Positions 10,166-62,957 of a stretch of 64,000 nucleotides of DNA are shown one piece after another. Under the pieces are notes generated by a model. It worked only from the letters and a program-made list of their open reading frames with translations, was not told the origin of the DNA and searched no databases. Positions within the stretch are counted from its first letter, which is position 1. Each line of letters starts with the position of its first letter. The stretch lies in assembly GCA_947561395.2 (NCBI GenBank), contig OX387184.1, forward strand, positions 22,593,687 to 22,657,686, read 5' to 3'. Made by a program: the position numbers and the translations under genes. The DNA comes from Buxus sempervirens. Taxonomy: Eukaryota > Streptophyta > Magnoliopsida > Buxales > Buxaceae.

Positions 10166-10168
10166 GCT

Positions 10169-10918: not shown

Positions 10919-12559
10919 ATTACTCAGTGCATCACACAAAACATATGAAAACAGGGGAAGAAAGCACCACAAGGCAACAAACGACCAAGACAACCACAAC
11001 ACCAGATGGCCAAATGAAAGACAGAAACTAGAAAGCTGGGGACCCACAGAGGACAAACAAAGGCAATGACCCAAGGACGGTGATGTAAAACCCCGAATTT
11101 TTGAATATAGTAATATAATAAATAAACCTAAATATTGGATAATAAGTTAGATAAACCTAAAAAAAATTAAGGAATGAAGACTTAACCCAAGTATTGGAGG
11201 ATTAGCAATATGTTCCAAGTATGTATATATTATTAATTAAATACATGATAGTAATTACGAGTTATTGGGAATTGAAATAGTAATTAAATTAATTGGAAGA
11301 TTAATTATAGATTTGACCTTAATTAATAGTGATAGGAAAATTGAAGAATTAATTTAGAATAATTGGGAAAATAAGTTAAATATGAAGTTTGGGAAAGATA
11401 AGTATTAATCCAAGTGTGTATTATAACCAAGAATACTATAGATAATAAATTTGGAAATTTTGGAAGAAATCCAATGGGTAGATATGAAATTATCAAGAGA
11501 AGGGTATTTTGGTCAATTCCTAGTTAGCTAAATAATTAAATAATTATTAGGTTTAAGAAATTAAGTTAGACTTAAGTTGGGTTGATTTAAGTATAAATAG
11601 TGAAATTTATATCTTGATAAGTGAGGAAAGGGCATATTGGTGATTATAGTTAATTAGGAACCTTAAGTTGAGGGAAAAGAAGAGTTTTGGGGAGTTTTTA
11701 TAATATTTAAAAATAAGGGAAATAATTATCACGAAAATTAGGAAAAATAGAAGTTTCTCTTATTTAGTATTAAGAGGGAAGAATTAAAAGGAGTTGTGAA
11801 AGAATAGGAAAGCTTCTGAGTGAGATTAAGAAACCTAGTGGGATTAGTTAGAAAGTTCCCTAAACCTATTAAGACTTCTATTTTTGGTGAGCCTATAAAA
11901 TGGAGGCTTTAAGGAGGAATTAGGATTTCTTCTAATCAAATTATATAGAGGAAACAGAGGAGAAAAGAGGGCTCTAGCGTTTGAAGAATTTAGAGAAAAG
12001 AGGAGTTGCAGAGAAGTCCGACCAGCAAACTTTGAACGACAATCTACAGAGATCCAGCCGTTGGATCGGCCTTAAATTTAGAGGTGTTATTCATGACTGG
12101 TGGAACTTCAATCTGAACGGTGGAGATGGGTTCTGAGGTCCCTAGAGAGGTGCAATTAGTAGCAGAATTTCGGCTATACCTTGAGGAGAAGGGTTTTGCG
12201 TTTTGAGGCAAGTAGTAACACCCCATTTTGTTTAATCGTTGCATGGTTTTAGGTTTAATCAAATTGGTATGATTTGGAATTATTATATAATGCTTTGAGA
12301 TGCAAAATCATATATTTTATTTAGTATATTTTGTGGGTTTCAATGATCATAGATATAGTGGAAGAACACCATCAAGCATGCTTTTAAGTGTCAATTTTAT
12401 TGGGGTTTGATAAAGATTTATTGTAGATCTAGGTTTTGAAGTGTTTGGATTAATCTAGCATGTTTAGAAGTTGAGAATATATGATTTAAAAATGGTTTGA
12501 ATTCTTGGAATCATGTTTTAAAGAATTATAAGAGAAGAATTACAAAAATTGGATTTCCA

Positions 12560-13296: not shown

Positions 13297-13860
13297 GCGG
13301 ATGAGATATGTGACCACCTGCGGGTGAGATGTGACCTCCTATTGGAGGAAATGTAATCCAAATTGGATTGCATCCCGCAAGGGAGATATGTGACCACCTA
13401 CGGGTGAGATGTGACCTCCTGTTGGAGGAGATGTATTCCAGATTGGATTGCATCCCACAGGGGAGATATGTGACCACCTGTGGATGAGATGTGGCCTCCT
13501 GTTGGGAAAGATGTAATCCAGATTGGATTGCATCCCACAGGGGAGATATGTGACCACCTGCGAGCAAGATGTGACCTCCTGTTGGGGAAGATGTAATCCA
13601 GATTGGATTGCATCCCACAGGAGAGATATGTGACCACCTGTGGGTGAGATGTGACCTCTTGTTGGGGGAGATGTATTCCAGATTGGATTGCATCCCACAA
13701 GGGAGATATGTGACCGTCTGCAGGAGAGATGGGTTACCTCCTGTGGGGGAGTCCCACAGGGAAGATGTGTGTGTTACTACCTGTGGATGAGATGTGTTAA
13801 CTCCTGAGGGAGAGACCTCATGTGGGGAAGATGTGATTACTACGTGATTGCATCCTACAT
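13297..13860. repeat. 80-bp minisatellite in LTR A4
   Basis: About five near-perfect 80-base units followed by degenerate half units. The word GATTGGATTG recurs at 13441, 13521, 13601 and 13681, exactly 80 bases apart, and a variant lies 80 bases earlier. Each unit contains GGGAGATATGTGACCACCTG and a related GAGATGTGACCTCCTG, so the unit itself is an old 40-base duplication. The minus strand of the array lacks stops in all three frames. Confidence 0.9.
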
Positions 13861-14142
13861 GGGAGAATGTTACTATTGGATGTTGAGATTGATTACTAAT
13901 TATATATGATTGGTTTTCTTTTAAAAAGAAAAAGATTAATTGATTGATTTAGCCATGTTTTGAAAAGAAAGGTTTTTGAAAGAAATATTAAAATGACATG
14001 ATTAATATGATAAATTGTTTTGGGAAAAACTATTTGTATTAATTTGGGAAAAATTGTAGATTTGATTTATAAGACTTTGTCTTCTTGATTTAGCGATACT
14101 TGTTATATTGTTTTGCAACTCATGAAAGGTTTATAAAGGATA

Positions 14143-42364: not shown

Positions 42365-42533
42365 ACCATCTCGAATGAAACCTCGAAACCCCGAAGCATC
42401 TTCTGGTTGAACGAAGCACTATCCAGTGAAATCTCAAAACCCATGGTTTTGCTTGTGTTTTTTGTGGAAGGAAAGGGCTGTAAAGGGTTTTGACGAAGCT
42501 CATCAGCCAAATGTTTGCATTGGTAGCTATTTT

Positions 42534-42605
42534 GGATGAATCTCCTCAAGGTATGAACCTATTGTGGCTAATCGTTTTTCTATTTATCACCGATTTTCCC
42601 TAATC
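42534..42605 (+). repeat. Left terminal inverted repeat of the MULE
   Basis: GAATCTCC...TATGAACC...CTAATCG...TTTTCCCTAATC pairs with the inverse of 58830-58900 (GAATCACT, TATGAACC, CTAATTG, TTTCCCCTAATC). About 49 of 70 positions agree by eye, ungapped. Similarity fades outward. Confidence 0.6.
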
Positions 42606-43496
42606 GGTTTTCCTCAAAACAATTCATTGGAATCGCCTGAAGCTCATCACTTTATTGATTGATTTGTTCGACTAGAAGCCGACTAATTGGACAATGAACA
42701 CATTGTTCATCCTATAAATCGAGTAGAAGTCAATTAATTGGTTAATGAACCTATTGTTCAATGTTATTTGGTGTGTTTTTCATAATGCTGTGTTTAGTAT
42801 AAAGATGTTTGTGGGTAGCATGTTGACTCTTAAGACTCTTAATGGGTAAGAGAGATGATGTCGAAGTTTTAAAAAAATTAAATACATTTGTTTAAAATGT
42901 ATGAGTTAGAAGGCATAACAAGGCTACTTTAGCTGACGAAACCCTAGAAATTTGAAATATTAAACTATATGTCATTGAAGAGTCTATAGCATAAGTCACT
43001 GAAAGTGAAATTTTAGAGAAATATAATTGTAGGGTTATTTAACCAATATCATGGCTAGGTAATTTAGGCTTTATCTAACAATGAAATGGTCAAGTTGATC
43101 ACTGTAAAATATGATTGTAATAGTTTCATTAATGGGTTAATGAACCTATTGTTCAATATTATTTGGCGTGTTTTTCATAATGCTGAAATTTTTATAAAAA
43201 GTTTCAGTGCTTTGAATGTTTTACTCAACCTGGCTATTTTATCTATTATTAATGCAATGTTGCTCTATTCCGAAAATTGAGGAAAAAAATTTTTGAAATT
43301 GGTGAATGAAGTGTAGGTAAGCCTCAAGGAAGACGGACATGTCCAACACACATGGCAAGTGAAGGAAATAATAGAAGCACGAATGGATTGCCTGTCAATC
43401 TATCTTGGGTGAGAGAAAGCACAAAGTAGTGTGGTGGTTAACTAGTATTCTATGTTCACACTTGAATCTAATTTTAACACTTGATTATTGATACAG
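42606..43496. other. Non-coding MULE sequence upstream of the ULP1 exons
   Basis: AT-rich and without a recognisable coding exon. GAACCTATTGTTCAATGTTATTTGG at 42747 recurs in nearly the same form at 43141, so the stretch holds an internal duplication about 400 bases apart. Confidence 0.5.
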
Positions 43497-45324
43497 ATAT
43501 TACAGGAGCAAATGGACCGGATGGCGGCTGCTGCTCAGGAGATGCAATGTCATTGCATGGAATTGAAGTTGTACCTCCAAAGACGTGGAGACACACCAAC
43601 CCATGGTGAATAGCCGGATTCAGCCCATGATTGGTGTCCATCCCATGAGTTGAGACGATCACCACCACCAGTTGAAGCCGTTGCTGATGAGGAAGGGTCA
43701 CCAGTGCAAGTTGCTCATAACATCGTGTCACCAGAACCGAAGGTTGTTTCTCCAAGTAAATTCAAGCGAATGATTAAGAAACCCAAAATTTTGTGTTCTC
43801 CGTTCGTTGTCCAACACAAATTCCCTCCGTTGAAGCCTGATGAAAAGCAGGTTGTCGAATATATATATGAATTGCGTGCAATGAAGTAAGTAATTCTTTA
43901 TATATATTGTTTCTTTCATAACATGAAGTTAATGTGTGGAGATGTTTATATTTGTGTGCTAGATCTACGGAAAACACAATTAGTTTTCCCTCGATGTATT
44001 GTTTCAATTGTGACATGAATTTGTCATTGTGTAGCTTGGTTGTTGTGGATTATATTGGAATGCATGTTACAGTGGAAGAGATACGTTGCTTGGCAGATGG
44101 ATGTTGGGTTGACAGCATGGTATGTTAGTTTTATCTCGTTGTATAGCTAGTTAATTCCACAATCATATTAACGGTTATATCTATTATGTGTCATGTAATA
44201 TAGGTAATAGCAGCATATGCTATCTGCCTTATCAACCGACAAGGTTTACATTCATCAGGAGTCACAAAGCATTATTGTTCTCCCGTTGTCACTGTAAGCA
44301 TATTTGACTCTTCTAGCTTGCATTAAATTTGTGTAATAAGTTATGCATGTTTGTAATTCTATTGTAAATCATAAGATATAATCATAAACATCAAAGAGGA
44401 GATTAAGATTGATACGATGTATAAGAAATACTTCTCTCTGAAAACAATTGGGTTTCTCCTCCGTGAATGTGAAATGGTAAATTAACTATGTTTTTTATGG
44501 AAATAAATTTGCATGTTGTCTTATAATGTTCTTCTCTCAGTAATTTTTGCAAGTTCTTCCAATCACATATTTAGATTGGGCTTCTCCTCCTAATTAATAG
44601 TTAATGTTTTATATAGATTTTTCTACTAGTATGCTAAAGGAACCATTGGTTCCTTGAAGTTCTAAATGTGAAAGGAAAAAGATTTGAATTTTTGGACTCG
44701 GATAGTAGTTCAAGACAAGGTTTGCAAGGGGAGGCGGTCAATAAACTTGTAGGTTTGCCTTTCCATTGTTAATTTGTAATTTAAATTTGCTAAGCATCCT
44801 TCTGTGTTGTCGTAGAAGTGTTCGCCTTAGATGATAGTGCAAGAGATTTTAATTTGGCAGGAAAACTTTTTTGAGGACTTATTTGAAACATTTGTCCACG
44901 GAAGACCGCTTGGGATTCCATCATGGGATAGGGAGTATGCATCAGTGCCTCATCAAAAGAACGGGTAAGATACTGTCTTTGTGGATGATTGGTGTTCTGC
45001 ATTGTTCTAATACGTTTATGTTTTGTTTACCCCAAACTTGTGATGTAGGTTTGATTGTGGTGTTTTTGTGTTGAAGTTTATGGAGTTTTGGGATGAGCAT
45101 GTGCTAAACCCTCAATTTGGACAGGCATGCTTTCTTTTTCCAGAACTTAATAACATCATATGCATTTATTATCTTATAGATGATTGTTTGATACTAAGTT
45201 AATGTCATTACTTGTTATGAAGCATGATAATATCCCATAATTTAGGAAAAAGGTGATGGCCAATTTGGTGTTGGATCCAACTAACAGGTTAAAGGATAAG
45301 GTGTTGCATCGTCGGATTGGTTGA
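43497..45324 (+). pseudogene. ULP1 (C48) cysteine protease, C-terminal half, multi-exon
   Basis: Exons separated by GT-AG introns: 43497-43885 (coiled-coil start QEQMDRMAAAAQEMQ, then KPDEKQVVEYIYELRA), 44033-44119 (MHVTVEEIRCLADGCW), 44205-44291 (VIAAYAICLINRQG), about 44390-44476, about 44640-44760 (HWFLEVLNVKGKRFEFLDSDS), about 44850-44960 (ENFFEDLFETFVHG), 45048-45123 (FDCGVFVLKFMEFWDEH) and 45246-45324 (ending LHRRIG, stop). The catalytic His (HWFL), Asp (LDSD) and Cys (DCGVF) are all present. ULP1 enzymes cut SUMO from proteins; MULE-borne copies have no known host task. An in-frame TAG near 43611 and missing upstream exons mark it as partial. Confidence 0.78.
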
Positions 45325-45347
45325 TGCTTGGAGAAGACACTTCCATG

Positions 45348-45520
45348 TTTGGGGTTGTATAGTATTTTGTATTCATAGGAACATGAACTACTTTACAATG
45401 TTTTGGTGTTTTCTTTTTTTGGAGTGATGTGATGTTTGGGGTTGTATAGTTTTTTTTATTCATAAGAATACCAACTACTTATAATGTTTTGGTGTTTTCA
45501 TTTTTGGGAGTGATGTGAAC
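45348..45520. repeat. Tandem 86-bp duplication after the ULP1 stop
   Basis: TTTGGGGTTGTATAG at 45348 and at 45434 begin two units sharing ATGTTTTGGTGTTTTC and GGGAGTGATGTGA. It lies in the probable 3' untranslated part of the ULP1 gene. Confidence 0.75.
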
Positions 45521-45599
45521 TTCATGTACTTAGAAAGTTTTGGTGTTTATATATGTCTTGTTGAAAGTGCCTTTACAGTTTAAAGCATGATGTAGCAAG

Positions 45600-47170
45600 T
45601 AATGAAGGAATTGTATTAATCGCTGAAAAAACGATTAACCTGTTATTATTTTGATTAACCGCAGGACAAATGTAGATCAATCGATAATAAGTCCGATTAC
45701 CGGTAGGATCATCGATTCATCGATCAAAATGCTCTAGATGACCATTAGACGGGTATCACAAATTTCCGATTAATCAAATAATATTACGACCTATCGTAAT
45801 TAAATCGATTAATCGGTCACTCATCGTCGCCATCCTCAATATCCCCGCACATCAACGTTCTACTAATCGCATATTATCACGATCAATCGTTTGTAAATTG
45901 GTTAATCGGAATTCAGCTTGCCTATCCCTGGGGTACCGGTATGAACAGCTTTCGATTAATCGCATAAGTCCCCATTAATCACATGTTTTCCGACTAATCG
46001 CAATTGCATCCGATTACTCACATGGTGCCACAATTTTCGATTAAGCATTGGCATTTGTGATAGACATTTCCGATTAATCGACGAATTTTATTGAAATCGA
46101 ATTCTTCATCAAAGAGTTAAAAAGAGATTAACCGTTCATGGGATAAAATTTCATGAATCGGTGGATACATTTAATGTTCATGGGATACAATTACATATTT
46201 CAGGGGATACTGATTATTAATCGTTGGAAATTCACGAAGCATAAGATGGTATCCCACGATTACTACACTTATATCCAGCCCATAATTGGAGAGACAATTT
46301 CGATTCATCAATGGAATAAATTTAGATTAACGCCTTTTAGGGGATACAATTTTATGAATCGGTGGATACATTTTATATTCGTGGGATACAATTACATATT
46401 TTAGGGGATACTTATAATTAATCGTTGGAAATTCACAAAGCATAAGATGGTATCCCAAAATTACTACACTTATATCCGGCCCGTAATTGGGGAGACAATT
46501 TTGATTCATCAATGGAATAAATTTTGATTAGCGCCTTTTAAAGGATACAATTTCATGAATTGGTGAATACATTTTATATTCATGGGATACGATTACATAT
46601 TTCAAGGGATACTAATTATTCATCGTTGCCTAATCACGAAGCATACGATGGTCTCCCACGATAACCACAATTATATCCACCACGTAATTGAGGATATCTT
46701 ATTAGCATCGAGGATACAAATATTTCTTTGTAGGTTACTCTTTAGGCAATCAAAGGATACTTATAGAGGTTCGTGGGAACAACCTGAAGAAAGGGATGAT
46801 ATCCTACGATTAATCAAAGAAGGATATAATTACATCATCATCGGATACATTTCAAATACGATTGATCGCCAATATTTGTGATAAATTGGAGGAAGAGAGA
46901 ATGACCTATGAACTTGATCGATCATATATTGATTAATCGTAACGATGACGATAAACTACATGGGGCAGTTTGAAATTCAATGATCAGCAACTTATCGTTT
47001 AATCGTATATTTCACGGTTGTGTATGTTTGTTATTTAACTCTTTGTTGATCGTAAGTTAGTAGATTAACCGTAAAATTATCGATTTGTCACTTAAACAAC
47101 CGATGAATCGAGTAATTTTGTCGATTAATCGAAAGTGGCAAAACAAAGCGACGCTTTTGCGCGCGCATAT
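45600..47170. repeat. Left CGATTAATCG-rich array with 201-bp tandem units
   Basis: Dozens of CGATTAATCG, GATTAACCG and CGACTAATCG words in 1.5 kb. Part of it (about 46130-46740) is a tandem repeat with a 201-base period: ATAAGATGGTATCCC at 46241, 46442 and 46643 (variant), with GGGATACAATT(A)CAT words. No frame is conserved across units, so I read it as cis-acting DNA. Its mirror array is at 51480-52830. Confidence 0.8.
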
Positions 47171-47574
47171 CTTCCAACTGACGTGACGCTTCGATTAACT
47201 CTCTAAATATATTTCGCTGCATGTAACAAGGTCACCATCTTCCTCATTTGTCATCCTCTCCACCACAACCCTAGGGTTTACTGCGTCCACTTCATCTTGG
47301 GAGATAGCATCGATCGTGGAAGGTCTTCTTCTGGTAAGAGTATCTAAGATTTCACACCTTCTTTGCTACATTTCATTTCCGATTAACTAACGATTCATGT
47401 ACACTGTTTGTTTGGTTTGTTTTTTAGGGTTTTGATCTTCTTGCATGCGCCTCTCTCATTTGTGTTTCCTTCCTTGAATGCTTGGATGATTTGGTCTGTA
47501 ATGGGGTTGTGTCTTCCATTTTTGTTCTCGTCTGTGCCTTTCGTTCCTCTCTGACTTCTTTGCTTAAAGCCATC
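47171..47574 (+). promoter_or_regulatory. Promoter and leader of the transposon-protein gene
   Basis: After the array comes CTAAATATATTTCG (possible TATA, 47202-47215). A perfect double telo-box AACCCTAGGGTTT sits at 47267-47279, and the leader appears spliced (donor CTG|GTAAGAG near 47333, acceptor TTTTTAG near 47427). Telo-boxes are common in promoters of plant genes active in dividing cells. The assignment is by motif and position. Confidence 0.5.
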
Positions 47575-48417
47575 ATGCCCAAACGCAAAACCTTAGGTCG
47601 TAAGGCTAAGAAGGCAAGGACACCTACCCCATCTCCTCCCCCTCCGTCTAGGTCAAACTATGACCCTTCTGATACTGAGCAACCTGGAGGGCCTTCAATT
47701 TTGCCTTCATTGTCTCCAAAACATGCACCATCCGCTGCCCTTGGGGGTGTGGGGAACGCATCCAACGATCATTGGTCGTTGAGAAAGCTGTGCTCAAAAA
47801 CCAAATTTCGAAGTATGGTTTGGAACCACTTCTTAAGAAAATTGGATGGGAGGGTCTTCTGGATTGGGGTGGTGATGCAAACAGGTCCGTCGTGTGTCAT
47901 CTTTATGAGAATGCACATGTTACAACTCCTCCCCATGAACCAAATCCTGCATTTGCAGTTGATATAAATGGTAAAGCTGTCGTTGTCACCCCTAAGCGCA
48001 TCAGTGAGTTGATGCACATCCCGCGTAATAAAGTGCACACATTTGATCCCCCCATCCAGTCAGACCTTGTGGAGGCACGCGTTGCCTTTGCGGGAATGAC
48101 GCCGAGTGGCACAGAGCCACCCTTACTGCTGGTAGTATGATCCCAAAGTATAGGATTCTCCACCACATCTTCACATTTAATGTGCACTCGAGGCGTGGTA
48201 ATAAGTATGACATGACTCCTGCCATGGTGATGCTTCTGTATCGAGTTGTTCAGGGCATTAGGATGTGTTTGCCAACGTTGATTTGCAAACACATTTGTCA
48301 GTTCATCCTGTCTGCCAATAAAAGTAAAGCAACATCCAATCCTAGATCTCTTCCTTTCACTTATCTAATGACCCAACTTTCCAAAGAACATGGACTCTAA
48401 GGTCCAGTTGAATCTAC

Positions 48418-50828
48418 TGTAACGCCCCAGATCCGAGTTACGTAGAAAAACCATAACTCATCTCCAGAGGTTAGTATGTAACACAAGATCGCAATATCAG
48501 AGTGAAGGAAAAACATGAATACACCAATAACTATATAATAGAGTGCGCTAAAATAACCTTAAAGTGGAATAAAACTCACTTGACCAAGAACTACCCGTAA
48601 GTATTGTCCTCTCCAAGAGCAGCTGAAAACAAAACAAAAACAAATGGAATGAGATACGAATATCCCAGTGAGCAGCACATGCATGCACAAATACATTTAG
48701 TTCAGTTCTAAAATATGCCATGGTTACAAAGCATATACAGTGACGATAACACATATAACTCGAGTAATCCGACAACATTCCAATCGATAAAACGCAGAAA
48801 TCCATAATAAAACCCAATTAGTAACATCGGTATCAAATCTTGAATATAGCCATGAGATCAATATAACCAAGTAACTATACATCGATGAAATCATCATTTC
48901 AAATAACCCAAGGTTTCGAAAAACTAGAGTGTTTATCATGGGCCACTCCGCACCAATAGAGTATTTTATCATGGGCTACTCTACACCAATAGACTAGCGA
49001 ATAAAACATATTACATCAAAATAAACCAAAAACCAACATTGGTCAATGTCATGTAGTTGCTTTGGTTAATTGACATGCCAAGGCGACATCCACTCCTCCA
49101 TGTACACAGTTCCGGCCTACTCAGGGTTTCGGGCACTCTGAAATGACGGCCTACTTAGGGTTTCGTCATCCAATGCCGACCTACTCATTAGGTTTCGGCA
49201 TTGACAACCAGGCCTACTCAGGGTTTCTGGCTGCTCTACACCAGCAGTGGCAACACTCAAGGCCATGCAATTACACCAACGAATCAATAACATCACATTA
49301 CTAAGCTTAGACTCTGGATCCAGGACAAGCTAAACAAGAACAGGAACACAATTTCAAACTCACAACTGACACCAACTACTATCATCATCATGTATAACCC
49401 AAAACAATTTCATCACAGTTACTCCGAACATGCATAATATCTCACGAAAACCCAATAGGTGCTCTGACCCACAAACACAAGTCCATTGACAATAAAATCT
49501 CCATTACTCACACAAAACAATATTCGTAAAACCAACTTAACACTTTGATAGAAAACACTTAAACTCAAATTAAACATATTCACAGCTAGAAACAATGTTA
49601 AATCATAAATAAGATTGAAACACTAAACGAGGGTATCAAGAATAGAAATTTCATTACCTACTGTACTTTGAATATCACTTTTGGGAACTTATAAATCCCA
49701 CCAAAAATTGACTCAATGATCTTCAGGAGTTTGGAACAATGAAGAATGTCTCTAACCACCTAAACAGACTTTTGGAGAAAAGGGGTAAACATTAAAGTGC
49801 CAAAAATAGTCTCAGATAGGTCAGTCGCAAGACCCTGAAAAATTTTGAGGGTGCGCTGACCTCTATCGCTTGGCGCCAAGTCGGCGGACCCACGATTTTT
49901 GGTTCGCGCTGAGCTCGACTCGTTGGTGTGAGGTCAACGCCAACTCAATGGACCTACCCTGCTCCTATGCGCTAAGCTGCCGCTGGGTAAGGAGGTCGAC
50001 GGCAGCTCGGCGGACACACTCTACGATTTGTGACTCTCTGTTAACACCAAAACTCCATGACTGACCAAATTTTAGACCTCTATAACAATTTTCCCATGCA
50101 ACTACCACCCTCAATAAACGATTAGACACGATTTGAAATTAATCTAACATACTTCATATCACGACTCTAAAACCCACCCAAAATCCACGTTTGGAGACTA
50201 TGTTTTGCCGAAACCATGCTTCACGACTAAACTTAGAGATCAAAATCAAAACACAAGTTAAAACGATGCTACTCACCTCTTATATGCTCAAATCCTTGCA
50301 CTGCAACTCCTATCACCGAAGGTGCAAAGAACGATCTCCACCCACGCTCTTCTCTGCTCGCCAGATGATCTTTGAACTGAACACTCGCCGATCAACAAGA
50401 AACCCACGCATTTCTCTTCTCCTCAAAGCCCTAGCAATACAGCTGCCAAAACCTTCGAGTTCAAAGTATACAAAAACCTACGACCGAAATACCTTATAGT
50501 ACTTATACTTCACTTGATGATTCGCTGCCTGCTCGCCTACACATACCCATACATGCGCAGTCTCCCAGCAGTTTGATCTAATGAAACTATTCTCTACATA
50601 ATCACCCACATATTAAATTATTTTATTTTAAAACCACTGAATTCAACCAAAGAAAACTCAGCTAACCGATTTGTCATTTTTTTTATAATTTCTCCTATAT
50701 TATTTTTCGTTTAAGTATTTTGCTCTAAATAATTCCCTTTTCTCTATTTCTAAGATTTTCCATTAATTAAACTAATTCACAACAAAATCTAATAATTTTT
50801 AATGTTATTAAAAATTCGGGATTTTACA
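48418..50828 (-). mobile_element. Solo LTR 'A2'
   Basis: It begins TGTAACGCCCCAGATCC and ends CGGGATTTTACA, flanked by TCTAC (48413-48417 and 50829-50833). At 2.41 kb it is the shortest A copy; sense is minus. At 49085-49240 it has its own tandem words (GGCCTACTCAGGGTTTCGG), and at 49856-50030 a GC-rich block (GCGCTGA, GTCGGCGGAC, GCTCGGCGGAC). No coding region. Confidence 0.82.
49085..49240. repeat. Tandem words (CCTACTCAGGGTTTCGG) in LTR A2
   Basis: Four to five copies of CCTACT(C/T)AGGGTTTC with short spacers, in the place where A1, A3 and A4 carry different tandem words. Confidence 0.7.
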
Positions 50829-51253
50829 TCTACTGTCCATTGCTTCATCAGTGTATGGACCCCAGGATATCATCAAGCTCTCAGACAGAACATGATGCAA
50901 GTACAACACCAGATGGGGCCCAGCTACCATCTACATCATCCATACCAGATCCTCAACGTGCACACCGCGACAGGCGTCGAGACCCCAATCATCTGCATGG
51001 AGAAGCGTCGACTTCATGACCATAAGCTAAAGAATTTGCAGTTTTCAAGGAGGAGGTCATACAAGAGCTTGGAGGATTGAAGCGACTAGTGAAGCGGGTG
51101 TTGCGGGTGGTGAGCCACATTTATACTTGCCAGAGTAAACAAGAGCCATCACTACCACCTTTGCCAGAGTCAAATGCAGATGATGATGCAGGTGCTGGTG
51201 TAGGTGCAGATGTGGGCGCCGGTGCAAGTGCAACACCAGAGGAGGCTGTGTAG

Positions 51254-51479
51254 TTCATGTCAGTGAAGATGTGGGAGATGTTGTTTTTTTGGTTAACTTG
51301 ACTTGTTTAATTCAGAACTTGACTTTTTTTAACTTTATGAACTTGACTTTTTAACTTTGTTAACTTTATGACTTTTTTGTATGTTCCCGTACGTAAGCAA
51401 TATAATGTGGTATGTTTTAATGAGAATATTTTTGCACTATCAAATGGATCTTTTGTTTATGTTGGTATCTCTATTTATA
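51254..51479 (+). other. 3' part downstream of the transposon-protein stop
   Basis: A short T-rich stretch with repeated AACTTGACTTTTT words between the stop and the right array; a likely 3' untranslated region. Confidence 0.45.
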
Positions 51480-52830
51480 GTTGGAGATTTGTCCATTTGA
51501 AATGTTTACGATTAAGACATTGATGGATCGGAATATACTTTGATTTATCAGTACATGAATCGGAATTTGAACGATAAAGGATCGCGAGTCAAAATTACTA
51601 ATTCGATTCATCGGAAAATGATCTCAATTGATCGTTGAAAGATCGATTAATCGCTAAATTATCGATTTAAGAAACAAAGCGCGTCCTTCAGTCTCTTCTC
51701 CATGCAGGGTTAACCCTTGACTAATTGATTAACGACGATGATCCAATTTGGCCACTGCATGGACATATTCACGATTAATCGAAATGATTAACGATGAATC
51801 AAAGTCATGCAGATGAATCGAGAAATTGCCGATACGAAATACAGAGTGACCTTTTTGTGGGGTTTATGCAAGATTAACTACCGATTAATCGAATTGCACC
51901 AATTAACCACTGGGTACCAATCGATGATTATCGATTAATCGTAAGTCATATCCGACTAACCACTATATTTAGATTAATCGATAATTGGCAATTCAAATTA
52001 CAGACTGTCGTTTGCTGAGGCAAATTGCAGGATTAAGCGTCGATTAATCGAGCCTTGCCGATGAAAGATTGGGGGAATAGCAATCGATAATAACCGATTA
52101 ATCGTAACGAATGACCAACTAACCATTAATGTTTGATGCATCGACGAAGTGCCGATTCAAGTTACAGAGTGTCCATTTTCTTAGACAAATTGCAAGATTA
52201 AGGATCAATTAATCAATAATTGTCGTTGAAGGACTGGGCGAATAGCAACCGATGATAACCGATTAATCGTAACGAATGACCGACTAACCATGAATTTCTG
52301 ATTAATCGATGAAGTGTCATTTCAAATTACAGAGTGTCGTTTTTCTGAGACAAATTTCAGGATTAAGGCCCGATTAATCGAGAATTGCTGATGCACAACT
52401 GAGCGCATAGCAATCGATGATAACCGATTAATCGTAATGAATGAACAACTAACCATGAATTTTTTATTAATCGAAGAAGTGCCGATTCAAATTCCAGCGT
52501 GTCGTTTTTCTGAGACAAATTTCAGGATTAAGACCTGATTAATCAAGAATTGCCGATGCACAACTGGGCGCATAGCAATCAATGATAACCGATTAATCTT
52601 TTATTGTTCACGATTAATCATTGATTTGACGATGCATCTAGATTTTGTCGATTAGATGGACGTTGGTTTTTTTGCTGTGGTGCGTTACAGGAGTAACATT
52701 CGACTAATCAAAATGTGCCGGTTAACCACATCGTGCATTGCTTAAGATGACTTCGGGTTAATCATAACAAAATGTTAGATTAACCACTATTTTTATGAGT
52801 AATCTATTAATTAACGATCGCAAATTTTTA
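51480..52830. repeat. Right CGATTAATCG-rich array with 165-bp tandem units
   Basis: The word CGATTAATCG in the context GATAACCGATTAATCGTAA lies at 51932, 52095, 52260, 52425 and 52590 (last copy degenerate), giving a 163-165-base period over five units. Each unit holds three to four CGATTAATCG-type words, plus a conserved CAAATTACAGAGTGTCGTTTT segment. Units differ in sequence from the 201-base units of the left array but share the palindrome. Confidence 0.88.
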
Positions 52831-52989
52831 GTCCCTTCGTCGGAGGTCTATGAATTTTGAGTTTATGTTGCTGACCCCAACTGTTTGGCTAAGGCATTGT
52901 CGGATTGATTCAAGTATTTGAGTGTTAGAATGAGAAAAAATAATATCAATTTCTTTATTGTTTTGAATGTGCTATCTGGCAAAAAACAT

Positions 52990-55059
52990 TGTTAACCAGA
53001 CATACATCACTTGCTTTTGCATGTTAGCCTCTCCAATTATCAATTACAAACTGTCACCAATGTAATAACATCTCAGTCACCTATATCTTTATTAGCTCTA
53101 CTATTGCAGCTTCGATATGCATCTCTTACAATAATGATGGCTATCCGATATGCATCATTCATTATCTGTAACTCTTTCCGCATGTACACCAACTGACCAA
53201 CCACGTCCTGACAATGGGAGAATGATAGAGTTGCTTACATTATAGGGTCAATAATAGCACTGTAATGAATGGAAATTGTCGATAAATGGTTAGACGATGT
53301 ATGAACAATATCTTACAAGGTCAATAATAGGAAATTCATACTTCAGATCTTCAGGGGTCACTGGAACATCCTCCTTTAACCGTTCCGGTGTGGACTACAC
53401 AATAGAAAATAAATAAACACAACATGCCAAAGTCGTTTTAAGTCAAAAATTGTGAAGAGGGGAGCGGAGACTATTCCATACTTGTGCTTTTGATGGAAAT
53501 TCGCTTCTGCATGCAGAACTTCCAAAACCGGCGTCAAACATCAATGCCTCCAAATTTACCTACAAAACACATCCACCAATTTATTCACCTTGCTGTATAA
53601 TGCATCAACTTGAGCAAGCATATACAATGTAAAGTAAAGTAAACTCGTCCGAGGCCGAATCCATCGGCTTTCTTCTCAACGGTTTCCCGTGCCTTCGAAC
53701 GCTCTTTTGTCCAAACCAACAAATGTGGCAATCGTCTATTGAGGTTCAGCGGGCCATGAAGAACACACTCATAATATAAAAACTGGAAAAGATGAATGCA
53801 AGCAATGGAACCATCGTCATGGATATGTGTTTGTATATTCAGAAAATAACGTCATGGATGCAAAAGTAACATGAATACTTCGAATTGAGAGTTCTCACCT
53901 ACAAAAACAAAATGCAACCACCTATGCATTGCTTCTTCTTCAACTGAACTACTTTGATTTCTTGGATAAGGTAGTGAAGAACAAACTCTGCCCAATTTAG
54001 GGAAGGCAAGCTATGTACATCTACCACCGTGTGTAATAAACTCATACTAGCACAAAGGTTCGCATTTGGACACAAAAGACAACCCAGAGCGAATAAAACA
54101 AACGCCCGTATAAAATCAGGGCTAGACTCAGGGGTAGCTAACCTAGACTGCAACTCTGTAAGGGGAATATCGTGCTTCTCATTCTTAAACAAACTACGGA
54201 CCTCCTCTACTCTATCATCTGGTCCAGAAGTGTTGACTGGCTATCCTTCATGACTAATCCCCAATATGGCGCTGACATCTACACTAGAAATAGGAATGGA
54301 GTACTCTCTAATTTGTAGGCAACAATTGCATACATCGACTTGATTAACAAGCCAAATACATAAATCTCACTTAAGGGACCTGTTGTGAAGATAAAGGAGG
54401 GACCCAAAACCAATGGCTTCTACCACCGAACGCTATTTTGGTGTAAACCCGTTGCAACACTCCACGAATCGCAGTGGAGAGCATCGAGTGATCATACATA
54501 ACTGCAATATCACGTGTACTAATTACGTACCCAAAAAAAACAATAACTTATATATGCTTGGTTGTATGACCAATCGTAATTGGAAGCATGGTAAAGTGGC
54601 ACAACATACCGGATTAGCTTTCTTTTTCGGTGCTTCAGACCGAGATGTTTTCCATTCAGCTGCGTGTAGGGCAGCTCGCTCATGATATGGCCGCCTCACT
54701 TCTGCATCCATATCCCGCCACATTGCTACGACACTGTCATTAACCTACAAACAAATTATACAATGGCATGAACCACGTGTCAAATCTGTTTGCAACTAAT
54801 TGGGAAAAATACCTTCTTTAGGATGTACTCCACTCTTTTCGCAATTTTTAATGTACTCAGACCTACATGGGATACAAGAAAATAAATCCATCAAATACAA
54901 TCATTATTACAGCAACTGTTTATGATAAATCTATCAAACACATGCAACAAATATCATGATTCCTTACTTGAATATAACCCAAGGGTTTTGAGGTCTTTTT
55001 GCCTTCAATATTGAGGTAGAAGCTGCTCCAAGATCGTGAGTAGGTGCATTTTCGTCCAT
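52990..55059 (-). pseudogene. ULP-type MULE gene, N-terminal half with HMG-box-like start
   Basis: Minus-strand ATG at 55059. Exons 55059-54968 (MDENAPTHDLG...KAKRPQNPWVIFK), 54862-54813 (EYIKNCEKSGVHPKE) and 54744-54610 (DSVVAMWRDMDAEVRRPYHE...) with GT-AG introns together look like a MATA-type HMG box: RPQNPWVIFK, then W, PY and A at the usual spacing. One base at the second junction does not fit a simple splice. Downstream are LVNQVDVCNCCLQIREYSI...ILGI near 54270-54350, FVLFALGCLLCP near 54090, QFLYYECVLHG...PHLLVWTKERSKARE near 53700-53780, NLEALMFDAGFG near 53540 and QLVYMRKELQIM near 53190. This is the N-terminal region found before ULP1 domains in such genes. The ULP1 half does not follow on this strand. 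Confidence 0.66.
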
Positions 55060-55509
55060 CACTACCACTACTTCTTCCCTTGCTAACAAAGATACAACAT
55101 TTGTTTATGCTAAAGCATGTGCAAGAACACACATAGTAATCAATTAACCGCATTTCACAGAAAGGTTCTAATATTACAACAACACATCGTCAAATAAAAT
55201 AATGATAAGGAAGTAATAATAAATAAAAATTAGCATTGTCCTCCAACCAGATATCAATTAACCACAACAAATCCTCCCCACTATCTCCAAACCAACAATC
55301 ATTGATCCGCAGTTTTCAACGATGTAACTGTTTGCCTTCCGCTTTGCTTACTTTAAAGGGTTGGAACGCATCTACACACAGCTTGAACCTGCAAAAATTG
55401 TTATTAATAACAAAGCTTACTTACTACAAGTAACTTGGATAGACAGAATTAGATTCACATCGTACAAAATAACAGTGGCTACCTCTATGATAACTGCATC
55501 CAAGACAAA
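55060..55509. other. Spacer between the HMG/ULP gene and mudrA
   Basis: AT-rich, non-coding. Both genes are on the minus strand, so this is downstream of mudrA and upstream of the HMG/ULP gene; its promoter would lie here. No clear TATA box can be singled out. Confidence 0.5.
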
Positions 55510-55512
55510 GCT

Positions 55513-57691
55513 CTAGATTGAGGCCCTGCATGTAGCTTGGTTGTGTCCTGTCTCATTGCAATGGGAACAGTGGACTAGCCACTTGTTTTGGAATTGAGAC
55601 TCTATGCGCTTCTGCCGAGGCCGCCCAGGTCGTCGCTTTGTTTTAGGGGGCAGCATGCTTGTTGGTGTTTCACATGAGTCAGCAAGAGATATCGCATCAA
55701 TATCCGCAACATTAGGTATGTCATGTGTTGGTACACTATGCATCAACTCTACATATATCAGCTCTTAAGTACACTTGCGATAACACTGCTCCACATACTC
55801 ATATAAATTTAGTGATTTCTTCTGCAAAACAACACATGCATGTTCACAAGGTATGCCGGACATTTGCCATCGCTTGCATGTACACTCACATCTCAAGATA
55901 TCCACAGTAATGTTTCTATCACATGGCCTGACTTCATATTCATGTTCATCACATTACATTACAGACAACCCCACTCCTCGTGCTATATTCTCTTCAATTT
56001 TCTTCGCAATGCGACCACAAATAGGTGTCTCCCATGTGCTGATCTCGTTCTTCTTTCTTACCAACATCTTAGTTAACTTAACCCTATATGCATCAATGAA
56101 TCTTAAGATAGGATATTTCCTCTCCTCCAACATCCAAGCATTAAAGGACTCAGCTACATTTGAATATAGCTTATCCCAACGCTTCTTAGGAAACAATGAA
56201 TTCGTCCAATGTTGAGGACCATTTTGCTCCACCCAATGAAACATTTCATGTGAATATGATTGCAATACATCCATCGCCATATCAAAATCCTCTGGAAGCC
56301 AAGCATAAGCTATATCATCCAATAATCCCAAAGCCACCTTCTTCGCTCTACCTAGATGAAATTGATTAATGAATTTGCTGAAATTTTCTTTCACATGCCG
56401 ATAACAATGAGCATGATTTTGAAACCCAAATGTGCTACCCACAGCATTGATAATACTTTAATGCCTATCACTCACAATCACAACATCGACTCGACCTCCA
56501 ATTGCAAACTTGACCCATTCGAGGAACCACAGCCAATCCTCATTATTCTCAGCAGTCACAATTACATAAGCTATCGGGTACATACCATCATTAGCATCAA
56601 GAGTTGTAGCAGACAATAACGTTCCTTGCTATGGTCCGCTAAGGTGGGTCCCGTCAATGAAAATTAAAGGTCTACATCCCACTGCAAACCCTCTCAACGA
56701 ACAAGAGTATGCAATGAACAACTACTTAAACTTCCCGTCATCATTCGATGTACACCAAGCCAACATCCCTGGATTAGACTCCATCAAGCGTTGACACATC
56801 CATGGAATAAGTTCGTATGAGTTCTCCACATTTCCATCTATCTTCCTCTTCACTTTCTCCTTGCTCTTCCAACATTGCTGGTATGTTAAATTCATTGCAT
56901 GATCATTATGAAAGTCCTTGGAAATTTGTCATGGCAAGTAATTCGGTGTCTCTCTTACTGTTTTCTCAATAACACCAGCTATCCACTTCAACAGAACATG
57001 TGGCAGAGATATATTCCCGACTATTTTTCTTGAACACATAACGGAATCTGTTGCCAATGGCATGCTTGTAGACAACTTGCCTAAATTCATCAGCACTCCT
57101 AAAAACCTGACCATCACCAATAATTTGTGATTGCCACATGCTAGACACAAGTGGGCCCCTATTGTGTTCAACACAACTCCCAACAACTGTAGGCTCCCGA
57201 TCAACAAATGTACCCGCAATTGGTTCAAGCAACGGTTCAATACTTATTAAATTAGTTGTCCAAAAAAATAAAATAGTTTAAGTATTAAAACACTAGTGTG
57301 ATAACAAACACTACGACTTTGTAAGTCAAGTATGTGATAATCACCTTCTGGAAGACTGAACCCTTTGCGATTGCCCTTCACCGTCAAATAAGTACACATT
57401 CACAGAATGTTCATTGTGGGAGATAATGTTAAGTAACCCCGCTTGACCAGTAAGTGGAAGTGAAGCACTCTTATCATACATAAGAGAGTACTTCATAGCC
57501 AAACCCACTGAAGATATCCCAAATAAACTACAGACATCACGTACAAATTGATCATACTGTATATTACCACTTATATTGAAACCAACTAAACGACCCCCCT
57601 GATATGATATAGACTTATCTTGCTCTATAACTATCTCTCCACCTATATGCAAGTAGCAAAACAACGACTTCTCCGAGGGTGGTTGAGCCAT
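55513..57691 (-). pseudogene. mudrA: mudrA-type MULE transposase (degenerate)
   Basis: ATG at 57691 (MAQPPSEKSLFCYLHIGGEI); exon 1 ends at 57345 with a GT donor and exon 2 begins at 57242. Order: PB1-like N-terminus; MuDR DNA-binding domain (VFRSADEFRQVVYKHAIGNRF near 57050-57110); DDE core with FIDGTHLSG (Asp near 56656), IVSDRH (Asp near 56464), HCYRH near 56400 and NVAESFNAW (Glu near 56150); SWIM zinc finger CECTCKRWQMSGIPCEHAC near 55830-55890; and a C-terminal RRPGRPRQKRIES hook with the knuckle CSHCNETGHNQATC, ending at 55513. It binds the terminal repeats and cuts and pastes the element. At least four in-frame stops make it inactive. Confidence 0.88.
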
Positions 57692-58829
57692 ACTGCACTC
57701 CACACAACATGTTAACAAGGTGAACAAATGCATGATTAATATAAACTAGTTGAAATAACAACTTAGGCTATCAATTATCTACCCACATAAACCTATATCA
57801 TGAGCACCTTAATCAACTTCGATAAGGCACTGAACATGTAAACCCAATAGTAAAGAGAGGAAAATACATTAATAAATAACTCTACATTTAAATCAAATAA
57901 CCTATGAAGCTCTGGAAATGTGTTATATCCAGAGTAATAAAATTAATGGCAAATGCAACAAAATAAAACACCTTATTTTGCTGTGACACAATATCATGAG
58001 GTCTTTTTCAATTACACACTTGACTTTGAAAGAAGCTTTTCAAGATAAAGCCTGTTAGTAGGGCACATAATGAAATTGTAGATTTACCTTCCATCTTCAC
58101 ATCAGCTAGGGTGACAATGAGAAAAAATAGGAATGCAGAAGTTTGACACAGTGAGAAGAAACAATAATTTTTTTCTAAGCAATGATTCAAGAAGAACTCT
58201 AATCCTTCATATTTGACAATGATGTATATTGCCAAAACACAAAACATTCTGAAAAATTCATCAAGACACAGGTAGTAGCTTATAAATATCCATGAAATTC
58301 AGAAATTTCACCACAATTTCATGATCATCCCTATGCCCAAGATCCTTGGAAATGTCCTAAAACTCTAAGCTCTACAATTTTTTTCCTACATTCTTTTCAT
58401 TCTTAATGCATAACTTGCATTGGAATTTTACACCTATAGATATTTTCCATTGATCAAATTGCGTTCAAATTCTTATGCTAGAACATAATTTCCTCGGTGT
58501 TTCTCCTTTTTGAAGAAATGTTATTTCCAGAGTAACAAAAATAGTGGCAAAATGCAGCAAAATAAAACACCTCTCTTATAACAATATAGATAAAATAGGG
58601 GTGTTGACTAAACCATTCAAGGGACTGAAATTTTTGAAATTACAAGAGCAATACAAACAGCATATTGAAAATTGAGATGATTGCTCATAATTCTATTAAT
58701 CGAACTATTGTGCAACCCCCATTTCATAGGCATCGATTCTAAGACTAAATCGAAAGTAAGCCAAATGTTCTTCGTCACTTACACATGGTGTAGGAAAACC
58801 AAATAAATCCATCACTCACGGATTAGGGG
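57692..58829. other. MULE subterminal non-coding region upstream of mudrA
   Basis: AT-rich sequence between the transposase start and the right terminal repeat; it would hold the mudrA promoter. A 60-base segment is repeated (57914-57973 and 58515-58573). I see no gene. Confidence 0.55.
57914..58573. repeat. Direct repeat of about 60 bases, 600 bases apart
   Basis: GAAATGTG(T)TAT(A/T)TCCAGAGTAA...GGCAAA(A)TGCA(A/G)CAAAATAAAACACCT occurs at 57914-57973 and 58515-58573 with about 85% identity. Confidence 0.75.
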
Positions 58830-58900
58830 AAAAACGTTTAAAAAAGGATTACAATTAGGGAAAATCGGTTCATAACTTCAAGTGATTCCTCCACGAAAGG
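58830..58900 (-). repeat. Right terminal inverted repeat of the MULE
   Basis: Inverse partner of 42534-42605. Beyond it, to about 59200, the outer part of the repeat probably continues (GC-richer sequence, then GGGCAAAATGGTC near 59175, a word typical of plant MULE ends), but the left side lacks a clear match. Confidence 0.58.
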
Positions 58901-59200
58901 AATGTCCTGCAACTAACCTCTGTCAACTCGATCTACGGTCGTTTACTTCTGCGCTCGACAGCAGCAAGGGGCAAACAATCACTCGATCATCCGTGAGATG
59001 GTAGAGATGAGAGGGGTTACAATGCCGTTCAAACCCTCTCAATCGCAACCACCTATGGTCGATACCACCGCCGGGATGATGGGTCGCCGTCACTGAGGGA
59101 AGCCTTCATCGTTCGTCATTTCCTTTGACGCTTAATCATTTTTTGATGACGATAGGGTGTAATCGAACGAAGAGGTAAGGGCAAAATGGTCTGTTCACAA

Positions 59201-60047: not shown

Positions 60048-60242
60048 TTAATTATAATGGGAGAGATGGTCCTGACTTAGCACCACTGGCGGAACCAGTG
60101 TATAGCTAGGGGGGCAATTGGCCCCCCTAAATTTTATTTTTTAATTAAAAATATATATAAATTTTATATGTTTTATTTAAAATTTATGTTTTGCCCCATC
60201 TAAAATTCAAGGTTTGTCCCCTCAACTCATTGAAATTTCTAT

Positions 60243-62957
60243 TGTAACGCCCCAGAACCGGGTTACGTAGTAAAAACCGTAACTCGTTCCCCAAGGGTTA
60301 CTTTTATACACAGGATCGCTATATCAGAGTAAGGAGAACATGAAATGGCAATAACATAATCAGAATCAACTAAAATTTTCCCCAACTCACCTAAACCAAG
60401 CATAAACCCGCCTGTATCGTCCTCTCTGAGATCTGAAAACAAAACAAAACAGTGAGATACAACTATCTCAGCAAGTAGCAATGCATGCCTAAAATATAGT
60501 TGTAACAGTACTAAAACATGTACGATTAAAAATACACAACGATTAACCACGGTAATCCATCTAATCTCGGAAATACATCGTCAATCACATTCGGAAAATC
60601 TTATGTATTGGGACTCGTGAAGTTTGTCTATTTTGTGTGGCTAAGCACTAGTGTTCCAAACAATCCAGTCGAAATACTGCAACAGCTCAAACAACCAATT
60701 CATCGCCCTCATGGCGGAAATACCCGTGTGACCTCACCCTCATGGTGGAAACGGAGTTGCTGCAGCACTTCCCTCATGGAAGGCCTCTCCATCATGGAGG
60801 AAACGCATGAAGGAACCCTAGACTTAAATCCAAACAAAATATACAAAATTCACTACAACTCGACTGTGGATCCACACTAAGTCTCGCCCTAGTACTTTGG
60901 CAAAAAAATGTCGTATGCCGTGTAAGATTATCATAAAACATACCTTTAGTAAAAGAAACCAACATATATAGTTAAGAATACCAAATTCAATTTCAAATAC
61001 ACACTAAAAGCATCCAACAGTAAAAGTGTATAAAAATTGGCACAATCGGTAAAAGTCTATATCTTTCCTCAAAAGAATTCAACGATATGTCAAGAAACCA
61101 TTTCTCTTACTTTTCGGGTCAAAATAGAATTTAGGTTATTTCAAAAATATGATAAACAAAATTTATATGAGTCAACAAGAGCCTTAAGTTCATATCCATG
61201 GACAATTCGATAATCTCCTTTGATTTACCACACTTATTTTCAAATCCACATTTGATAACCAGGTCTTAAAAATAATAGAAGTCATAACAGAGACCAATAG
61301 TTTGATATAAAAATCAGAAACACCACCTCAAAGCACTAACAAATTTTCTCAACCTCTATTCTGGCATTTACCACTGTTACACTCAATTTATTTCCAATTT
61401 CTGAATTATTCTCTAAGGCAAATTCATAATTTACTTCACCAAAAATCTACCTATGTTTACTGGAATGCTAAACATCTTTAATCCAATCATTTAAACCTGT
61501 TTTAGATGTTAAAAATAAGTTCATATAAGAAAAATTACAACAACCGCACTTCTGTTAATATTTTGATCTGGTGCTAACCTATTTGAGGTGGGAACCAGGT
61601 CCATTAGGTTGGCACCAGGTCCAAGCACTAGGCGGCAGTGTTATTTTGGGTCTGGTGCTAACCTCTTTGAGGTTGGCGCCAGGTCCATTAGGTTGGCACC
61701 AGGCTATTTCTCTCTTCGCCATTTCTTCCAACTTGCGGAAATTTCATATTCTTCAATTCCAACCCAAAACCTTCCATCCGAAATGGGTCTCACATAATAA
61801 AAATCATCTAACTGACCATCTATAATTGCTTTAAAGTTATTCTAACCAGACTTCATTAGAGCAAAAAGATTAAACGCCAAAAATAAAACCTGAATATGGT
61901 ATTTCATTTAATCAAATTCTACAGATCTATATGTTCATAAAACTACATGAAATCATGAAATTATTGTAGATGCTACTTGCTGTTCCATCCTCCAAATTTG
62001 CGGCAGGTTCTAGTTCTTCATTTCTGAACCAAATGCTTCCATTCTAAACACGTCTAACATGATTAACACCCTCTAAATAACATCTCTAAACTAACTAGAA
62101 TTTAATCTAATGAAGAATAATAACACTCAGAGATTGGACGTCCAAACATGAACAGAACCTGGCATTTGTTACAGTCAAATCTAATTTCTACATGGTCACA
62201 AACACAACAAAAAAACATGATATTTTGAAAGGCTACTTACCTCTTGTTTGATGGAGTTCGACTTCTACAAGAACAGCAGTGAAACCCGATGTTTCCCACT
62301 ACCAGAAATCCTCACAAACTGGTTTACAAATCTGGGTTTTTCTTTTGAACGAATTCCACTCTCTAATCTGAATAGGACGCCCACTCTCCAACAGCACCAA
62401 TGTTTCTTCTTTCTTCTCCAACAGCAATCCTCTCCACTCACCTCAACTCCCAAATCTAATTTGCATCCCTTTTTCCTTCTCTAACGGTGGAGTTTATTGC
62501 ATCCGTTTTGCCTTCTCTAATTCGCAAAGGCTACGACCAGCAAAAACCCATACGTTAAAAAAACTGTTTGTCTTCAAATTTTTATCAAGTGTAGTGCCCT
62601 ACCACTATATCACCTACACCAACAGCCTATCATCCCTTAATAATTTATTTAGCCACTTAAATGCAATATCAACACCATCTAAATAGCTAACAAAAATTAT
62701 TAATTAAAACTTATTAAATACTGAAATTATATCCTAACTTTACTTACTTAAATCTATTTAATTCATCTTACATTTTCTATTTAAATATTACAATTATAAT
62801 ATAAGAATCATTCACTTTAATTCACCTAAGCTGACCTTTCTGAAATTCCTAACTTGTCCTTGCGACACAACTACTTGAATTATCCCTCATTATTTATTTT
62901 TAATAATATTAACAAATTCCTTATATTAGGCTAATAAAAAAAATCCGGGGTCTTACA
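60243..62957 (-). mobile_element. Solo LTR 'A3'
   Basis: It begins TGTAACGCCCCAGAACC and ends GGGGTCTTACA, flanked by TCTAT (60238-60242 and 62958-62962), inside the hAT MITE. Length is 2.72 kb, sense minus. Its tandem words are CCCTCATGG(C/T)GGAAA (60705-60800). Its GC-rich block is at 61565-61710, with GGTTGGCACCAGG and GGTCTGGTGCTAACCTC repeated two to three times. No coding region. Confidence 0.84.
61565..61710. repeat. GGTGCTAACC/GGTTGGCACC words in LTR A3
   Basis: Two 100-base-spaced copies of CTGGTGCTAACCT...TTGAGGT(T)GG...CCAGGTCCATTAGGTTGGCACCAGG. GGTGCTAACC and GGTTGGCACC are near-inverse words, so the block is palindrome-rich like those of A2 and A4. Confidence 0.75.

Follow-up and report, generated by a model that had tools for sequence, protein, structure and literature searches.

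A truncated MULE with two palindrome arrays

We analyzed a 64-kb stretch of the Buxus sempervirens genome (contig OX387184.1, positions 22,593,687 to 22,657,686; hereafter the window, with positions counted from its first letter). It contains the remnant of a MuDR-type Mutator-like element (MULE) of ca. 17 kb (42387-59200), which carries Ulp1-like, T32 (Transposase_32, PF20167) and plant-mobile-domain (PMD) genes together with two arrays of the palindromic 10-bp word CGATTAATCG. The transposase gene mudrA (55513-57745) and the PMD-like gene (53500-54760, limits approximate) lie on the minus strand to the right of the arrays, and the Ulp1-protease-like exons on the plus strand to their left (gene at 43500-45330, approximate outer limits). 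The mudrA sequence is split into several broken frames and matches DBD_Tnp_Mut (PF03108) with an E value of 3.6e-7. Two Ulp1-like exons were examined (44858-44965 and 45050-45121); joined, they match PF02902 (Peptidase_C48) with E 2.4e-6, using an approximate query with one wrong residue, and the exact sequence of the second exon alone gives E 0.017, below the cut-off. The PMD-like gene, tested through the exon at 53899-54240, matches PMD weakly (E 0.036) and is 88% identical to the PMD protein of the apparently full-length copy E1 described below, which is in turn 44% identical to a sister protein that matches PF10536 (E 8.9e-11).

Between the arrays, a T32 gene of the group that we call clade A occupies 47575-51253 on the plus strand. 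It starts with a basic N-terminus (MPKRK) and is frameshifted and interrupted by a solo long terminal repeat (LTR) at 48418-50828, flanked by the target site duplication (TSD) TCTAC (48413-48417 and 50829-50833) and missing from the E1 homologue. The two halves, in different frames, match PF20167 with E 0.0014 (19 bits) and 1.6e-10 (41.6 bits), both below the cut-off of 45. With split frames, frameshifts and the solo LTR, no full product is possible from this copy; what the preliminary description of this DNA had listed as a gene with a basic N-terminus at 47.6-51.2 kb between the arrays is a pseudogene. LTR stretches similar to the solo LTR were seen at 3320-3690 and 60238-60520.

The left array (45606-47131) has exact copies of CGATTAATCG at 45806, 45953, 46071, and 47122, plus variants, and includes 201-bp tandem units on the plus strand (46140-46694; 2.8 copies according to Tandem Repeats Finder) that contain GGATAC, with neighbors mostly 20 or 22 bp apart. 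The right array (51575-52800) has nine exact sites, starting at 51644-52425, and 165-bp units at 51918-52598 (4.1 copies in the same program). Palindrome-like sites reach past both tandem repeats. All 13 exact sites of the window start within 45806-52425, the last ending at 52434, against a mean of 0.02 and a maximum of 1 among 100 dinucleotide-preserving shuffles, and positions 1-45599 contain none, exact or with one mismatch. The preliminary description had stated that arrays of 201-bp and 163-165-bp units share the palindrome and that the word is rare elsewhere in the window, and had suggested the count against a shuffled background; units, exact sites and count all agree with it. Across the 676.5-Mb genome (contigs carry our working labels C1, C3, C4, and C15, with the window on C4), the word has 2,484 sites, compared to 238 for the reversed control word. 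Among the first 50 genome places listed, two clusters stood out, with 16 sites at C1:8.818-8.826 Mb and 14 at C1:8.575-8.577 Mb. None of the papers searched contains CGATTAATCG.

At the margins of the element, an inner inverted repeat at 42533-42608 (plus strand) pairs with 58818-58893 (minus strand), at 74% identity over 77 columns. The end sequences of E1 match the window only from their position 285 (at 42387) and 138 (at 59200), and the outermost terminal inverted repeat (TIR) was not matched at either side of the window copy.

An apparently full-length copy and relatives in the genome

E1 (C1:8817298-8833075; 15,778 bp) has 165-bp TIRs that are 99.4% identical and a 9-bp TSD, TTTAAAATT; in a second copy, the TSD consists of nine A. 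Its order is TIR, mudrA, PMD, a 165-bp array, a 199-bp array, T32, a 133-bp array, the Ulp1-like gene in reverse orientation to the transposase, and TIR, and the blocks of the window are collinear with it except for an inverted middle. The transposase matches PF03108 with E 1.1e-14, and T32 is an open frame of 445 codons that matches PF20167 (E 7.8e-19; 68.7 bits, above the cut-off of 45). E1 has 18 palindromes, at element positions 686 and 826, at 15 sites within 7358-12103, and at 15192; half-site words occur in bins other than those of the T32 frame and the transposase. The preliminary description, which did not recognize the element around the arrays, had drawn a comparison with VANDAL-type MULEs; a VANDAL-like setting is the right kind, in view of the MuDR transposase, the Ulp1-like and PMD genes, the 9-bp TSD, and the dense family-specific words.

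The genome was searched with the T32 protein (150 of 273 candidates scored; in two further genome searches, 150 of 573 and 40 of 141). Among these best 150 of 273, 56 belonged to clade A (69 to 100% identity, window included), the rest mostly showing 38 to 45%. Within 16 kb, 47 of the 56 had a mudrA match of at least 87% identity, 50 a PMD match of at least 76%, and 46 both. None of 40 distant T32 matches had such a close mudrA within the same distance, and two of the 40 (L048 and L049) turned out to be damaged clade-A copies; L048, at 55% identity, was thus rejected as a distant T32, being a clade-A copy with a split frame. In the same genome, mudrA matches of at least 87% identity numbered 56, including that of the window, among the best 150 of 451 candidates, and 40 DNA copies of the Ulp1-like gene were scored among 147 candidates.

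We fetched 30 clade-A loci (L005-L034, window included, with 1.5 kb on each side of the T32 match), and each of the 30 had one or more exact palindromes and six or more sites within one mismatch. Of six loci that match PF20167 best in the genome, none had CGATTAATCG and none any repeated 10-bp palindrome. The preliminary description had raised relatives of the gene without such arrays as a point that would speak against it; within clade A, no fetched locus was without the palindrome. Four of the Pfam-best loci that were aligned are 20 to 21% identical to the E1 T32. By analogy with PMC11728184, which describes a Transposase_32 domain in an Athila element, they are probably Athila-type genes.

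T32 lies in the same orientation as mudrA in 39 copies and in the opposite, window-like one in 8. Seen from 40 scored 165-bp-array loci, the side and strand of the Ulp1-like gene were constant in all 31 listed, while T32 pointed one way in 27 and the other way in 10. The inversion breakpoints of the window and L047 coincide, within the arrays. When 33 T32 sequences were placed in a tree, the 23 E1-like copies formed one group (support 97/88), with the window-like copies basal and L049, which shows the window order as judged by array adjacency, deepest. This fits a single inversion of the T32 block, from the window order to the majority order, after which the inverted form would have spread. 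Recurrent flipping of the block was rejected, one change being sufficient on the tree.

Evenly spaced words in four families

The arrays contain a second word. In E1, 32 copies of GGATAC run one way and 8 the opposite way, mostly at distances of 22 or 20 bp, a spacing equal to two helical turns (vector strength of 0.87 at 10.5 bp). Triples at that spacing number 3,138 in the genome (1,424 + 1,714), compared to 72 (29 + 43) for the reversed pattern. Helical periodicity is reportedly a point in the work of Sasaki et al. on the co-evolution of antisilencing systems. A helical-turn spacing of the palindromes themselves was rejected, with vector strengths of 0.28 at 10.5 bp and 0.56 at 11 bp (21 pairs closer than 300 bp).

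We compared four families, named F1 to F4, and all four have a word spaced by ca. 21 to 22 bp: GGATAC in F1, ACTCGAG in F2, GGTACC in F3, and again GGATAC in F4. F1 is the family of the window and E1, in which arrays with both words lie between PMD and the Ulp1-like gene, GGATAC is mostly in one orientation, and CGATTAATCG is also found near both ends. F2 (L044 plus L053, and L055) has mudrA, PMD, and a Ulp1 match, with an array of ACTCGAG, mostly 21 to 22 bp apart, between PMD and Ulp1; triples of this word number 1,727 in the genome (1,066 + 661), compared to 39 (19 + 20) in the control. T32 was not found in the fetched stretches of F2, and CGATTAATCG was absent from their 16 kb. By eye, L044 (6023-6430) and L053 (2103-2519) also contain apparent host gene fragments, resembling sugar transporter, bZIP, and ABC transporter genes. 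F4 (L062) has a PMD gene 62% identical to that of F1 and Ulp1, with the GGATAC array between them; neither a T32 match nor CGATTAATCG was present in its 4.5 kb, and the 2.7 kb that correspond in position gave no DNA match at E 1e-3 to the 6.3-kb block of E1 between the PMD-side and Ulp1-side matches.

F3 (C4:12269421-12290190; ca. 20.8 kb) has inverted ends and a candidate TSD, AGCTTCGTG. Its genes are a FAR1-type MULE transposase, a PMD-like gene, a weak Ulp1 match (E 8e-5), a T32 of a second clade, B, and an Athila-like T32 frame (L060, 6931-8265, minus strand; 445 amino acids with a proline-rich repeat; PF20167 E 6.2e-21). The clade-B T32 is 44% identical to that of E1, and both clades have a common C-terminal segment, GGLKRLVKRVLRVVSHIYTC / GGLKKLVKKAVKIVTHLFTC, which could possibly serve in dimerization. 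The F3 array combines GGTACC, mostly 20 to 23 bp apart, with the palindromes TGTGTACACA, CATGTACATG, and GTACATGTAC, and a second copy on C15 has the same words; GGTACC triples number 4,242 in the genome, compared to 14 in the control, counted per strand.

Within the array-bearing noncoding stretches, 10-bp palindromes were dense in the two families with their own T32 (15 of one word in F1; 20, 12, and 8 of three words in F3), while in the array stretches of F2 and F4 no such palindrome exceeded the largest count among 20 shuffles, which was 2. Since spaced-word arrays occur in families in which T32 was not found, the arrays as such appear independent of it, and T32 as the sole requirement for arrays was rejected on the fetched stretches of F2 and F4. 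The T32 found in L054, a copy of another family (F5), was not accepted as an element gene: its conserved positions align with those of the Pfam-best, Athila-like loci, and we read it as an insertion.

Co-location and gene-less derivatives

Co-location was counted among the matches listed, with palindrome-pair clusters complete for C1 and C3. On C1, the family array lay within 16 kb of the PMD genes of F2 (ACTCGAG, 4/4), F4 (GGATAC, 2/2), F5 (GGATAC, 1/1), and F1 (GGATAC, 1/1). Palindrome pairs were near four of the five F1 PMD genes on this contig and within 16 kb of none of the PMD genes of F4 (0/4, leaving out one partial F4-like match at C1:52486657), F5 (0/2), and F2 (0/6), nor of the clade-B T32 genes (0/12). 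On C1 and C3 together, 9 of 11 clade-A T32 genes had a palindrome pair within 16 kb, and 9 of the 19 palindrome-pair clusters had a clade-A T32 at that distance.

The palindromes are also present in derivatives. L045 (C1:8572001-8580500), a cluster without a clade-A T32 within 16 kb, consists of two inverted arms of 3.28 kb, 98.5% identical, and has 14 palindromes, six of them 199 bp apart between the arms, with GGATAC in 26 + 7 copies; no T32 match was found in it. L056 is an internal deletion that lost most of T32 and retained 14 palindromes. By eye, spaced GGATAC arrays at C1:1671681, 5534987, 7309953, and 12747200 have no listed PMD, mudrA, or T32 match nearby and are possibly gene-less relatives.

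Persistence of the word

In E1, all matches with E <0.01 between the 165-, 199-, and 133-bp units include the palindrome, the longest spanning 24 bp. L049, at ca. 70% DNA identity, has a 91-bp array that contains it, and the word is present in units of 201, 165, 133, and 91 bp. In pairwise alignments of the 30 clade-A loci (pairs of 70 to 97% identity, at least 400 columns), upstream palindromes were retained at 0.575, compared to 0.35 for other 10-mers with two CpGs; for pairs of 70 to 88%, the values were 0.467 and 0.187, and upstream CpGs were retained at 0.842 within palindromes and 0.66 outside them. The downstream contrast was smaller (0.658 versus 0.481). Taken locus by locus, the palindrome was the better retained upstream in 25 of 29 comparisons and downstream in 23 of 25. 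The palindrome appears from these alignments to outlast comparable CpG-rich sequence, yet not other repeated array words. The expectation of the preliminary description that units diverge while the palindrome stays was accordingly borne out across the four unit lengths and failed in the comparison with other frequent words of the arrays.

Other repeats in the window

Elsewhere in the window we noted 28-bp units at 20442-20520 (consensus TGCCCGTACTTCAAGTACGGGCGTGCCT, with a hairpin; similar CCGTGCCCGTATATAAATACGGGCACG units at L048 7023-7092), a long degenerate array of AACCATTTCGTGTTTCC-like units at 32164-33121, and an 80-bp minisatellite of 5.6 copies at 13303-13870.

Discussion

VANDAL elements are MuDR-class MULEs. 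Their VANC proteins, which bind to short motifs within noncoding tandem repeats, remove silencing (PMC5735166 and PMC10398659), and some VANC genes carry Ulp1 (KIU; PMC13317346). As those sources describe VANDAL, the boxwood elements resemble it in their dense, short, family-specific motifs, in noncoding tandem repeats whose units are gained and lost, and in a motif mostly in one orientation (GGATAC), the palindrome having none. Unlike in VANDAL, where the words given are YAGTATTAY and AGTTGTCC/AGTTGTAC, here a palindrome is combined with a spaced word in a TIR element, and any anti-silencing is putative. The reverse orientation of the Ulp1 region relative to the transposase is as described for Kaonashi/KIU MULEs (PMC13317346 and PMC2528002), whereas the Arabidopsis Kaonashi/KIU elements are non-TIR MULEs as characterized there, and ours have 165-bp TIRs, a separate PMD gene, and T32. 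PMD beside a MULE transposase recalls the PMD-carrying MULEs of PMC5418596, whose authors speculated on an anti-silencing role for the captured PMD; here, PMD is a separate gene and not a transposase fusion, and arrays are not mentioned in the passages concerned. T32 shares its Pfam domain with the Transposase_32/Athila ORF1-like genes (PMC11728184), but unlike the Athila-type genes, MULE clades A and B share the C-terminal segment and adjoin arrays, while all six Pfam-best loci are without a repeated palindrome. As far as sequence comparison goes, the elements match the VANC/KIU plan except for a DUF1985 gene.

We tentatively favor, while regarding it as slightly less than probable, that the arrays are VANC/KIU-like anti-silencing targets, with separate readers for the two words. 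The arrays would be noncoding cis-targets of a self-protecting plant MULE: a protein encoded by the element would bind them and free the element, together with derivatives that lack its genes, from silencing, as VANC and KIU do in Arabidopsis. The probable reader of the spaced word would be the product of the PMD or of the Ulp1-like gene, both of which occur in each of the four families; T32 would read the palindrome, plausibly dimerizing through its conserved C-terminal segment. The link between T32 and the palindrome is supported by the family comparison, not proven, and because dense palindromes mark the two families with their own T32, this part of the reading is testable. The preliminary description had taken the palindrome as the site of a protein possibly encoded between the arrays. 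In favor of this, the palindrome tracks T32, being present at all fetched clade-A loci and absent from the fetched stretches of F2 and F4; what did not fit are arrays without T32, the retention ranks and T32-less clusters given below, and the broken gene of the window itself.

Several observations weigh against the two-reader interpretation. The comparison rests on four families of one genome, with F4 known from a single 4.5-kb stretch. In F3, the array is bordered by the Ulp1/Athila-like side and the clade-B T32 instead of by PMD and Ulp1, and its palindromes, made of TG/CA/GTAC runs, could be simple-repeat-like. No spaced-word array was seen in the 9.5 kb of L054. On C1 and C3, ten of the 19 clusters of palindrome pairs, L045 among them, lack a clade-A T32 at distances of up to 16 kb. 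In retention, the palindrome ranked 54th of 73 upstream words with at least 30 sites and 8th of 10 downstream, and several of the better-retained or commonest upstream words contain all or part of GGATAC or of its complement. The domain known from VANC, DUF1985, had three matches in the genome, none over the cut-off (150 of 205 candidates scored), the PMD-like protein of F3 reaching E 4.3e-5, below the cut-off. A homology of T32 to PMD/DUF1985 was unsupported, the T32 and PMD profiles giving a probability of 0.95% and E 0.058. Lastly, the median pairwise ratio of nonsynonymous to synonymous substitution rates (dN/dS) among 11 long T32 frames was 0.83 overall, 0.96 for the T32 domain, and 1.19 for the N-terminus. 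The C-terminal part had a lower median, 0.52; we see little sign of constraint outside it, which is expectable for recent copies.

Alternatively, a single PMD/Ulp1 (KIU/VANC-like) protein might read all the words, T32 being a captured passenger between the arrays. We consider this unlikely, yet it is the best of the alternatives, since each of the four families has PMD and Ulp1-like sequences and two of them have their own T32, Ulp1-carrying VANC genes have been reported as anti-silencing factors (PMC13317346), and the PMD-like proteins of F3 and L057 weakly match DUF1985. It has to face F4, where a PMD 62% identical to that of F1, with no T32 found, goes with spaced GGATAC and without CGATTAATCG, and the occurrence of dense palindromes in the T32-bearing families.

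It is improbable that the palindromes are subterminal transposase sites multiplied inward, for excision or transposome assembly. Some palindromes of E1 do lie toward its ends (586 bp away at one, 686 and 826 bp away at the opposite one), and by eye pairs flank several copies at end-compatible distances; however, none lies in the 165-bp TIRs, 15 of the 18 are internal, and the fetched 16 kb of F2, whose transposase is of the same MuDR class, contain none. We give an equally low probability to the arrays being neutral minisatellites, whose word would have no function and would have spread through slippage, gene conversion, and shared descent. The near-neutral dN/dS of recent T32 copies and a retention not above that of other repeated words would agree with this, but one word is kept across four unit lengths, its CpGs are better retained than those outside, all four families have evenly spaced words, and the palindrome persists in L045. 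Least probable of all, a host transcription factor could use the palindrome to drive T32 and other element promoters, as would be allowed by the sites that precede mudrA, T32, and the Ulp1-like gene in E1, but array sites are also found 3' of genes, and the words vary among families within one host.

A broader version of the two-reader interpretation, which we hold to be rather unlikely, is that MULE-captured T32 forms a second class of sequence-specific anti-silencing factor that reads palindromes, beside a PMD/Ulp1 (VANC-like) reader of the helically spaced word. Each T32 lineage would then have its own palindrome (CGATTAATCG in one; TGTGTACACA/CATGTACATG in the other), and the module would occur in MULEs whose transposases differ. 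On this view, there would also be a hint at the role of T32 genes in Athila-type retrotransposons.

As natural families have either one or both of the two words, for which there are two candidate readers, it can be tested sharply and cheaply which protein pairs with which word. If T32 does not read the palindrome, the spaced word would still extend VANC/KIU-like systems to a genome without a DUF1985 match at the cut-off. If it does, this would give a function to a large plant protein family that so far has only the name "putative plant transposon protein".

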